A stretch of DNA of 64,000 bases. Source: Nitrospira sp. GTDB taxonomy: Bacteria; Nitrospirota; Nitrospiria; Nitrospirales; Nitrospiraceae. The position numbers and the translations under genes were made by a program. Numbering within the stretch: the first letter of the stretch is position 1; each line of letters opens with the position of its first letter. The notes beneath the pieces were generated by a model, which was not told the DNA's origin, did not search any database, and saw only the letters and a program-made list of their open reading frames with translations. This document shows positions 54,857-58,716 of the stretch, in pieces. The stretch spans positions 38,981 to 102,980 of the forward strand of contig JADYYH010000010.1 of assembly GCA_020853775.1 (NCBI GenBank), in the 5' to 3' direction.

Positions 54857-55783
54857 ATGCCTCGTCTTGTGATCATCGGCTCCGGCCCCGCCGGCCTGAC
54901 TGCAGCCATCTATGCCGCGCGAGCGAACCTCTCGCCGCTTCTGATCGAAGGCTGGCAATCCGGCGGACAACTCACGACCACGACAGAAGTCGAAAACTAT
55001 CCGGGCTTTTCCAAAGGGATCATGGGGCCCGAGTTGATGAAGGAGATGCGCGGCCAGGCAGCACGGTTCGGGACGGAGTTTTTGACCGGGGATGTCTCAG
55101 CCGTCGATCTATCGACGCGACCGTTTCGCCTGACCATCGACGGAGAACGGGCCATCGAGGCAGAAGCCCTCATTCTGGCGACGGGCGCCTCGCCTATTCG
55201 GCTCGGATTGCCGAACGAACAGCGCCTGACCGGGTATGGCGTCTCGACCTGCGCGACTTGCGACGGGTACTTTTTCCGAGGACAGGATGTGGTGATCGTC
55301 GGCGGCGGCGACAGCGCCGTGGAAGAAGCCACCTTTCTGACGAAGTTCGCGCGCACCGTCACCGTTGTGCACCGCCGCGACAAACTGCGGGCCTCCAAAA
55401 TCATGCAAGACCGCGCCATGCGTAATGAAAAGATTTCGTTCGCGTGGAATTCCGTCGTGGAAGACATCCTCGGGAAAGATCTGGTCACCGGGGTTCGACT
55501 CAAGAACATCGTCACCGGCACCTCCACCGATCTCCCCTGTGCCGGCGTCTTCATCGCCATCGGCCATCGGCCCAACACCGATCTCGTCAAGGGCCAATTG
55601 GATATGGACGAGCACGGCTACATCCTCACCTCGCGCGGGGCCCACACCACTGTGCCCGGCGTGTTTGCCGCAGGCGACGTCCAGGATGCGAAATACCGGC
55701 AAGCCATTACCGCAGCCGGCTCCGGCTGCATGGCCGCCATCGACGCCGAGCGGTTCCTGGAATCAGCGCTTCATCCTCTCTAA
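54857..55783 (+). CDS. trxB: Thioredoxin-disulfide reductase
   Basis: [33 protein letters not shown] (CxxC), [43 protein letters not shown]. Confidence 0.95.
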
Positions 55784-55791
55784 ACCTCCCA

Positions 55792-55917
55792 CAGGATGCT
55801 CAAAATGGTTGTCCAACAAAGCCGCAGGCGAGACAGATGCCGGAGGCGTACCCCCAGGGGTACGTTGAGGATATCGTCGAGCCGAGAACGAAGTTGGCGA
55901 CCATTTTCAGCATCCTG
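55792..55917. repeat. ~126-bp fold-back intergenic element with 18-nt terminal inverted repeats and central palindrome
   Basis: CAGGATGCTCAAAATGGT (55792-55809) vs ACCATTTTCAGCATCCTG (55900-55917), 17/18 inverted; central GTACCCC-CA-GGGGTAC (55848-55863). Confidence 0.85.
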
Positions 55918-55925
55918 GTAATATT

Positions 55926-57104
55926 ATGCATTGCGCGATCATCCACTACCACGAACTCGCCCTCAAAGGCCGCAACCGCGATTTCTTTGAACAGCGGCTC
56001 GTTCGCAATATCCGCTTGGCCCTCAAAGATCTGAACATCCGGCGGATCGAATCGCTGCAGGGACGTATCCGGGTGACGATCCCCGAGGGCGTCGCCCCGG
56101 ACGTGATCACGGAACGGCTCCGGCGCATCTGCGGCGTCTCCAACTTCCTGCTGAGCGAATCCGTGCCGTTAGATCTGAAGGAGCCGGATCTCTCGATGAT
56201 CAAGCAGGTCGCGCAGCGCCAGCTTGCTGCGCTGTCGTTCACCTCGTTTCGCGTCACGGCCAAACGCGCGGATAAACGTCTGCCGTTGACGTCCATGGAT
56301 GTGGAGCGTGAAGTCGGCGCCTATCTCCATGAAGTCACGGGCAAGGCCGTAAAGCTGAAACAGCCGGACCTGACGCTCTACATCGAGCTACTGACCAAAG
56401 AAGCCCATGTCGCGGCGAGGAAAATCGAAGGACCCGGGGGCATGCCGGTGGGCACCAGCGGTAAGGTGGCCTGTTTGATTTCCGGAGGGATTGATTCACC
56501 GGTTGCCGCTTACCGCATGATCAAACGCGGGTGTAAGGCGGTCTTCGTCCACTTTTCAGGCCGCCCGCTGGTCAGCCGCGCTTCCGAGGAGAAGGTTCAG
56601 GAACTGGTTCAGCTCCTCACCGCTTACCAATATCACTCCAAGCTCTACATTGTCCCGTTCGGCGAAATCCAACAGGAAATCGTCGCCAATGCCCCGTCGC
56701 CCTTTCGGGTGGTGTTGTACCGGCGGATCATGGTGCGGATTGCGCAGGAACTGGCGCGGCGGGAAGGCTGTTGGGCGTTGGTGACCGGCGATAGTCTCGG
56801 CCAGGTGGCCTCGCAGACAGCGGAGAATCTGGTGGTGGTCGAGAGCGCGGCGGACATCCCCATGCTTCGGCCACTCATCGGCATGGATAAAATCGAGATC
56901 ACGGAACAGGCCCAACAGATCGGAAGCTTCACCACATCCATCGAACCGGATCAGGATTGCTGCAAACTCTTCGTCCCCCTCCATCCAAGCACCAGAACCA
57001 AATTGGATGATATCAATCGGATTGAGCGAGGACTGGAGATCAGCGCCTTCGTCAAACGAGGCGTCGAGAAGGCGGAACTGACGATCTTCACTTTCCCTTC
57101 GTAA
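55926..57104 (+). CDS. thiI: tRNA 4-thiouridine(8) synthase ThiI (no rhodanese domain)
   Basis: YHELALKGRNRDFFEQRL (NFLD/THUMP), CLISGGIDSPVAAYRMIKRGCKAVFVHFSG (PP-loop), GDSLGQVASQTAENL. Confidence 0.93.
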   Translation: MHCAIIHYHELALKGRNRDFFEQRLVRNIRLALKDLNIRRIESLQGRIRVTIPEGVAPDVITERLRRICGVSNFLLSESVPLDLKEPDLSMIKQVAQRQLAALSFTSFRVTAKRADKRLPLTSMDVEREVGAYLHEVTGKAVKLKQPDLTLYIELLTKEAHVAARKIEGPGGMPVGTSGKVACLISGGIDSPVAAYRMIKRGCKAVFVHFSGRPLVSRASEEKVQELVQLLTAYQYHSKLYIVPFGEIQQEIVANAPSPFRVVLYRRIMVRIAQELARREGCWALVTGDSLGQVASQTAENLVVVESAADIPMLRPLIGMDKIEITEQAQQIGSFTTSIEPDQDCCKLFVPLHPSTRTKLDDINRIERGLEISAFVKRGVEKAELTIFTFPS

Positions 57105-57690: not shown

Positions 57691-57954
57691 CAGGCTCTAC
57701 CGAAAGATCCGGCAAGTCGGAGGATGCAGGTGTTTACCAAGGAGATCGGGATCCATTCAACGATGACACCAGCGATCATTCGTACTCCAAGCATGACAAC
57801 GGACTGGCCGGCGGGATCACTCACCGCGGAAGGGATCATACGAGAAGTATACTGATTGACCACAGGGAGTGCGAGTGCAGAGAGCAGAGAGCAGGCGCAG
57901 TATCGTTCGCAGGCTGTTCAGAAAGGCCGTCCAGCAGCCTGTATCAACCGCCTG

Positions 57955-58716
57955 CTACTCGGTGGCGAGACGGAAAACCAACACAGCTCCGGTGGGTGCG
58001 CCATGTTCATCGTGGATCACCGCGGCGCTCTCATGGATCACATGCTCGACGCCGTGACGACTCATGAGCAGGAAGGGGCGCCGGCCCTGATCCACTGGCT
58101 TGATCTGCTGCAGCGCTGAAAGGGCGGGATTCACCAGAGAGGTACGTCGCTGCGCATCCACCACGACCATGACATCTTGAATGGCTTTTCCGAGCGCGTC
58201 TGGCTGCGACCAGCCGGTCAGCCCCTCCGCGGCCGGATTGAGCAACGTCACCTTTCCCTGCGGATCGATCGTCACGACGGCATCACTCATCGATTGCAGC
58301 ACCGAATCGAGCCAGCGGCCGCGCTGTTCGGCAATACGCAGGACACGCTGACGAAAGAGCGCCAGTTCGAGCGCGGCGCGTAAATCGCTGCTCACGAAGG
58401 GCTTGATCAGATAGGCCAATGGGAGTGTATATCTCGCCCGCTCCAGCGTGTCCTCATCGGAGAAGGCCGTCAGATAGATCACCGGAATGCTGTAACGCGA
58501 TTGAATGGTCCTGGCGGCATCGATGCCATCGAGCGGCCCTTTGAGCTTGATATCCATGAGAATCAGGTCCGGCCGATGTTGTCCGGCCACATCCACGGCC
58601 TCGCTTCCCGAGGCCACCACCCCGACCACGACATACCCGAGCGACCGCAGTTGTCGCCGAATATCTTCAGCCACCACGACTTCATCGTCGACGATCAGAA
58701 TTTTTTCTTGTGCCAT
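57955..58716 (-). CDS. Response regulator: receiver + PAS domain
   Basis: KILIVDDEVVVAEDIRRQLRSLGY...DLILMDIKLKGPLDGIDAARTI...VIYLTAFSD; C-terminal PAS (MSDAVVTIDPQGKVTLLNPAAEGLTGWSQ). Confidence 0.9.
   Translation of the reverse strand: MAQEKILIVDDEVVVAEDIRRQLRSLGYVVVGVVASGSEAVDVAGQHRPDLILMDIKLKGPLDGIDAARTIQSRYSIPVIYLTAFSDEDTLERARYTLPLAYLIKPFVSSDLRAALELALFRQRVLRIAEQRGRWLDSVLQSMSDAVVTIDPQGKVTLLNPAAEGLTGWSQPDALGKAIQDVMVVVDAQRRTSLVNPALSALQQIKPVDQGRRPFLLMSRHGVEHVIHESAAVIHDEHGAPTGAVLVFRLATE

Follow-up and report, generated by a model that had tools for sequence, protein, structure and literature searches.

The 126-nt hairpin element between trxB and thiI of Nitrospira is one copy of a Nitrospirota-wide structured repeat and, in the reading that we favour and to which we give an even chance, an IS5-type MITE whose hairpin would have been retained as a structured 3′-UTR or intercistronic element, with a function presumed from where and how it has been kept. 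The window analysed comprises 64,000 nt of contig JADYYH010000010.1 from Nitrospira sp. (GCA_020853775.1). An initial annotation had noticed here a fold-back element of MITE or REP type; the phylum-wide structure with covarying stems, the abutment on stop codons and the retention by selection go beyond that reading, which missed them. The features of the locus, in window coordinates, are the following.

54869 to 55783, plus strand: trxB, the upstream gene, thioredoxin-disulfide reductase (TIGR01292, 411 bits, cut-off 343).
55780 to 55783, no strand: CTAA, the trxB stop codon and proposed left 4-bp target duplication (YTAR), read from the sequence.
55792 to 55917, plus strand: the hairpin element, 126 nt, plus being the better-folding strand (covariance-model match 55785 to 55925, 132.7 bits).
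55792 to 55800, plus strand: left outer arm CAGGATGCT, pairing with 55909 to 55917 (covariation among copies).
55801, plus strand: C of a C.C mismatch with partner 55908 (invariant, 27/27 copies of alignment A1).
55830 to 55831, plus strand: first tandem G.A motif, with 55879 to 55880 (GA/AG in 18-22/27 copies).
55843 to 55844, plus strand: second tandem G.A motif, with 55867 to 55868 (GA in 23/27 copies, AG in 27/27).
55848 to 55863, plus strand: apical GTACCCC-CA-GGGGTAC stem-loop (GTAC..GTAC pairs near-invariant phylum-wide).
55884 to 55890, plus strand: GAGAACG side of a conserved large internal loop, opposite 55817 to 55827 (27-copy alignment).
55909 to 55917, plus strand: right outer arm AGCATCCTG, a transposon-type end; the minus strand reads CAGGATGCTG... 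(junction in many copies).
55918 to 55921, no strand: GTAA, apparently a decayed right-hand duplicate of the CTAA target (orthologues with CTAA or TTAA).
55926 to 57104, plus strand: thiI, the downstream gene, tRNA uracil 4-sulfurtransferase (TIGR00342, 373 bits).

The profile matches (TIGR01292 and TIGR00342) confirmed the names given to both genes, and the gap between them holds the element as had been described; for trxB, 54857 is an alternative start to 54869. The terminal inverted repeats (55792-55809 and 55900-55917, 18 nt each and 90 nt apart) are complementary at 17/18 positions (94%), the central palindrome at 55848-55863 is perfect as read from the sequence, and 8 nt separate the element end at 55917 from the thiI ATG at 55926-55928, all as initially annotated. 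The proposal that the thiI leader may fold as RNA was likewise supported: the predicted fold of 55780-55930 reaches -68.7 kcal/mol, a value that none of 200 dinucleotide-shuffled sequences attained (-39.6 +/- 3.6, z = -8.2); the minus strand of the element folds too, more weakly (-55.9 kcal/mol). The further suggestion of a terminator found no support in its canonical form: scanning revealed no U-run terminator or promoter, with 0 intrinsic terminators (GC-rich stem, short loop, 3′ U-run) in 55600-56100. A decayed second copy lies at 57910-57942 on the plus strand (covariance-model match 57903-57962, 20.8 bits, E 0.003), in which an internal deletion has fused the left arm and the loop start to GCCTG. 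It lies 12 nt away from a minus-strand gene, 57955-58716, whose stop codon is at 57955.

The impression that similar repeats are common in Nitrospira proved correct, and genome-wide searching found other copies in abundance. The same genome contains 43 by BLAST and 86 by a covariance model (R1), which also gave 123 copies in the closed genome of Candidatus Nitrospira defluvii (G024) and 77 in G044, a member of another family, i.e. about 80 to 120 copies per genome. At least one covariance-model match was present in 59/61 relatives, and in a sample of the phylum matches were found in 65/148 genomes, other classes included. When 84,980 species genomes were scanned with a pattern, every one of the 80 records listed came from Nitrospira or elsewhere in the Nitrospirota, apart from one under the name Nitrosospira isolate NOB2, which is probably mislabelled. 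Within the genus, the closed genome G004 carries just 2 copies, whereas all other members searched have at least 35; remnants at trxB-thiI and pyrG show that the element was once present there, and G004 is a natural knock-out lineage that has lost nearly all copies. As far as could be searched, the hairpin repeat family is previously unreported: Rfam matched nothing in the window stretch at thresholds up to E = 1 and nothing at the element in five distant loci, and the open papers searched on extragenic palindromes, MITEs, inverted repeats and structured RNAs in Nitrospira do not describe it. RepRanger reported thousands of REP-like hairpins in N. moscoviensis (PMC12306157), which we rejected as the present family because they are generic hairpin counts. 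Two further arrangements were seen among the copies. In distant families there are head-to-tail tandem pairs or triples with 0-60 nt spacing (C230, C17, C322 and C342 of G087; C32 and C33 of G178). At L199, L200, L210 and the trpB loci of G014 and G012 (L228, L234), some 65-110 nt are inserted within the element, and the inserted stretch, GTTCACGACGCGC...GCGCGTC...GTGAACGCCGCCGAG, recurs at the same place across species, as a nested repeat.

Assignment to a MITE family, one of the two types initially proposed, is borne out by dispersed non-coding copies, terminal inverted repeats (TIRs), target duplications, an autonomous partner and an empty site. Nine N. defluvii copies share 97-100% identity across roughly 205 bp, and in these young copies the hairpin makes up the left portion of a 205-bp unit that has CAGGATGCGGAAAAA and TTTTTCCGCAACCTG as its ends and is flanked on each side by the same 4 bp, TTAG, CTAG, ATAG or CTAA (YTAR duplications). 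A pattern search with the unit ends led to a 1.3-kb element of N. defluvii with inverted copies of the end (L198), which encodes an IS5-family transposase (NF033581, 279 bits, cut-off 140; PF05598 and PF01609) and is flanked by TTAG on both sides. In the genome of the window, similar ends are found at several contig ends, some of them alignable to the L198 IS, as expected if a multi-copy IS broke the assembly; a few copies have TIR remnants upstream, about 65-81 nt before the hairpin, and two of these (C4:5866 and C64:198) are complete 205-bp units with CTAG on both sides. Many copies share on their minus strand a (Y)TAG/CAGGATGCTGAAAA junction. Since a related hairpin also forms the left side of a MITE some 195 bp long in G044 (L134-L163), with GGGAATGTTGAA / TTCAACAGGCCC ends and 5-bp duplications, the core has travelled on MITEs of at least two kinds. 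The REP assignment, the other type proposed, had to be abandoned, as 126 bp is the wrong size and there is no link to Y1/RAYT transposases. Mobilisation by a RAYT/IS200 transposase was rejected because presence of Y1_Tnp (PF01797) does not track the element: it is absent from the element-rich G002, G003, G005, G009, G011, G013, G025, G027 and others.

Comparing occupancy of the trxB-thiI site revealed empty sites in sister families of the same order, where trxB and thiI overlap as TAGTG (G037) or TAATG (G041). A second empty site is seen where trpB is directly followed by trpA (G043, G037 and G051). Within the genus, an intact element lies between trxB and thiI in 16/19 genomes with a thiI match; of the exceptions, G004 retains a remnant, and G009 and G016 have another gene immediately before thiI. 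This small gene takes the place of trxB and the element (about 1100-1500 in L115 of G016 and L109 of G009), and its product resembles four-helix-bundle proteins of the 23S intervening-sequence type. Orthologues L111 and L121 have CTAA on both sides of the insertion and L118 has CTAA and TTAA; the right copy in the window would have decayed to GTAA. The left CTAA is 8 nt off the hairpin and the window copy has no clear TIR at that boundary, which makes the left end assigned to the transposed unit at this site provisional. In several species (L112, L119 and L122) the trxB end and the element are tandemly duplicated, joined at a GGCGGCCAT-like microhomology. At two other genes, counted manually from printed sequences, the hairpin follows the stop codon in 19/24 (trpB) and 21/24 (pyrG) genomes of the genus, with remnants or deletions in G004, G021 and G003 and a truncated copy in G012.

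Thirty copies were aligned, and a hand-made structure of 43 pairs was scored on 27 of them. The loops are conserved and the stems variable: at least one double change was found in 32/43 pairs and pairing holds in 86.6% of cells, with a covariation score of 0.368 vs 0.134 +/- 0.009 when shuffled (0/500) and at most 0.09 when the structure is slid. The orthologues of one locus alone gave 16 double-change cells vs 5.9 shuffled (0/500). While the stems vary, the loops, the tandem G.A motifs and the one C.C mismatch remain fixed; six of the seven GAGAACG loop columns are invariant and the seventh nearly so (27 copies), and the second tandem G.A motif, flanked by two fixed G.U pairs, is kept in most other aligned families. 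In aligned examples from other Nitrospirota families the core GAGGCGTAC....GTACGTTGAGG is kept and the outer arms are wholly different in several; the GCAAGG internal loop is kept in most families and absent from the f8 family (G087). That the same folded shape has been kept across the whole phylum suggests that the element does something for its host. The two strands are not equivalent. Within pairs, G.U exceeds A.C (155 vs 97 in 114 copies, p = 3e-4; 122 vs 40, counting the fixed G.U pairs, among 36 copies of other families), mismatches are purine-purine rather than pyrimidine-pyrimidine (145 vs 17), and the plus strand folds better than the minus strand in 46/56 copies from the window's genome and in 26/28 from other families. 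In most copies it is the strand antisense to the abutting gene that folds better, at trxB-thiI the sense strand. The strand bias leaves room for an antisense RNA, a single-stranded DNA or a protein-bound role, the main rivals of action through mRNA. Element orientation also differs markedly between the two halves of the chromosome of N. defluvii (79/111). An effect of the replication strand was rejected (p = 0.72): with 69% of genes on the leading strand and the element antisense to the neighbouring gene, gene orientation explains the bias.

Placement was counted in the genome of the window, with the 3′ end of the element defined in the better-folding orientation. Where this end faces a gene on the opposite strand (54 scored), the distance to the stop codon is -1 to +2 nt in 36/54 and exactly 0 nt in 19/54, compared with stop adjacency in 1/69 at the 5′ end. 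The abutting stops are 26 TAG, 10 TAA and 10 TGA, TAG being overrepresented (26/46 vs a background of 94/283, p = 0.003). A facing gene that shares the strand of the element, the class to which the window copy belongs, has its start codon 2-16 nt away in 8/17. In N. defluvii, divergent intergenic regions are avoided (2/96 vs 25/134, p = 5e-5) and convergent gene pairs enriched (26/96 vs 14/134, p = 0.001). The gene beyond the other end of the element has no orientation bias. Neighbours include trpB, pyrG, purH, nadA, urtD, yajQ and a gene for a P-II-like protein, the first two confirmed by search and the remainder named from translations. One end abuts stop codons because an IS5-type MITE targets YTAR, which accounts for placement at TAA and TAG stops; a simple DNA target motif as the sole cause was rejected, since TAA and TGA also occur at that spot. 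One neighbour is unusual: at L070 9150-9413, minus strand (C80 of G000, element at C80:34032-34167), a MoaD-like protein has the usual C-terminal Gly-Gly followed by SDGC, its stop now lying inside the abutting element, which reflects either a frame error in the metagenome-assembled genome or a MoaD with a masked C-terminus.

The 11 orthologous thiI-proximal elements have a mean identity of 86%, whereas thiI averages 79.8% over its opening 690 nt and 57.5% at its third positions; the element is more similar than the third positions in 55/55 pairs and than thiI as a whole in 46/55. Because of this difference from third positions, and because the same genes (trxB, trpB and pyrG) carry the element genus-wide, it appears not to be a decaying relic but to be kept in place by selection. 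The same site is occupied by different subfamilies in different species and therefore gene conversion or replacement also occurs; gene conversion among copies could inflate the apparent conservation at single loci.

From that, one could propose the following course of events. Copies move as non-autonomous IS5-type MITEs and insert at YTAR, very often at a TAA or TAG stop, with duplication of the 4-bp target. In an ancestor of the genus, a copy presumably inserted at CTAA, the trxB stop codon, at a time when the ends of trxB and thiI still overlapped there, parting the two genes by some 140 nt; the flanking transposon sequence would then have decayed while selection on the folded shape kept the hairpin, which may now work as a structured 3′-UTR or intercistronic element. 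The most likely effect on the mRNA would be protection or processing of the trxB 3′ end together with altered coupling of thiI, rather than simple intrinsic termination. The data establish the family, its mobility, its target and empty sites, the conserved structure and the slow evolution; both the action of selection through mRNA and the direction of the effect are what we infer from the location of the element at gene ends and between tandem genes. A pure mRNA role fits poorly with a better-folding strand that is antisense in most copies and with the unbiased gene on the other side, and the near-total loss in G004 shows that the element is dispensable in one species.

The hairpin could instead belong to a purely selfish MITE, serving transposition or maintenance at the DNA level, with only well-folded copies spreading and with slow decay and gene conversion explaining persistence at a position. 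The TIRs, target duplications and autonomous IS5 partner are what such an element should have, tandem duplication, and one subfamily replacing another at a given site, also point that way, and so does dispensability in G004; orthologues evolving more slowly than thiI and its third positions would however be unexpected for inert relics, IS5-type DDE transposition requires TIRs and not a conserved 126-nt core, and one core stands behind different ends (CAGG/YTAR in N. defluvii, GGGAATG/5-bp in G044, other arms elsewhere). We therefore find this explanation doubtful, if still one of substance. A cis-acting RNA or DNA binding site for a putative dedicated factor, lost in G004, would agree with the loops, tandem G.A motifs and GUAC apex fixed across families, with the strand bias, and with near-total loss from one closed genome in an element-rich genus; as it stands we judge it unlikely. 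A combined version, tentative but possible to a greater degree, is that one cis-acting structured RNA or single-stranded DNA motif rides on unrelated MITEs, whose TIRs make up the outer stem, is placed at stops by YTAR and is kept because a putative host factor reads the loops and G.A tandems, G004 having lost that factor and shed its hairpins since.

Two other explanations address termination and the covariation itself. A bidirectional terminator, with a GC-rich stem between AAAA and TTTT acting both ways at gene ends, would account for the near-invariant A4/T4 tracts flanking the inner stem, the avoidance of divergent regions and the enrichment of convergent ones. It is improbable in that the scan found no terminator-like site, the closing stem encloses about 65 nt, and the element sits inside the tandem pairs of trpB-trpA, pyrG and trxB-thiI, where full termination would silence the downstream gene. 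The covariation might also be an artefact of quasi-palindrome correction, in which template switching copies one arm onto the other and no selection acts on shape. Double changes in the arms are what template switching yields, and internal deletions have left only the arms in G004 and G021; such correction would nevertheless erase mismatches, whereas the C.C mismatch is present in 27/27 copies and the G.A tandems persist phylum-wide, and mismatches are strand-biased (145 vs 17 and 122 vs 40, as above). This last explanation is already disfavoured and appears very improbable. Retention of the MITE hairpin as a structured gene-end element continues to be our preferred reading.

Nitrospira are among the main nitrite oxidisers and include comammox organisms, and a repeat present about 100 times per genome and lying between their core genes (trxB-thiI, trpB-trpA and after pyrG) seems undescribed in searchable papers and RNA families. 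It would offer a clear example of how insertions of a transposon have time and again become gene-end elements that are conserved and constrained in structure, and the choice of YTAR as target explains how a mobile element can be placed exactly at stop codons without harm to the gene. The system offers a natural knock-out species (G004) and clear empty sites, and the covariance model is directly applicable to existing transcriptomes.

Among known systems, integron attC sites share with the element their position directly after stop codons, a strand that folds better, an imperfect hairpin and a similar length. An integron cassette was accordingly considered, prompted by the stop abutment and the folded bottom strand, and rejected, given that the neighbours are housekeeping genes at their natural C-termini; unlike in attC, there are no RYYYAAC/GTTRRRY ends, the element ending in CAGGATG/CATCCTG rather than R-box ends, and the apex is conserved and the base variable. 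REP/BIME sequences are likewise extragenic palindromes at gene ends, and REPs are tied to Y1 transposases, whereas many element-rich genomes have no Y1_Tnp. REPs are also only 20-40 bp long (PMC3733652), compared with 126 bp here. ERIC/IRU of enterobacteria resemble the element in plan only, as imperfect intergenic palindromes of about 126-127 bp in tens to hundreds of copies, and belong to a different phylum; to our knowledge, neither stop-codon abutment nor phylum-wide conservation of loops has been described for ERIC. In Yersinia, ERIC copies located at the 3′ ends of genes change how the mRNA decays, and the closest precedents for the role proposed here are ERIC and Correia elements processed in mRNA and QMITE2 in 3′ untranslated regions (PMC10969869). 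With IS5-derived prokaryotic MITEs the element shares short non-coding units, TIRs, the 4-bp YTAR duplication and an autonomous IS with the same ends, present in N. defluvii and as partial copies at contig ends in the genome of the window. It differs from them in its 126-nt core with covarying stems and conserved loops, which is also found in MITEs with other ends (G044) and is far older than any one IS.
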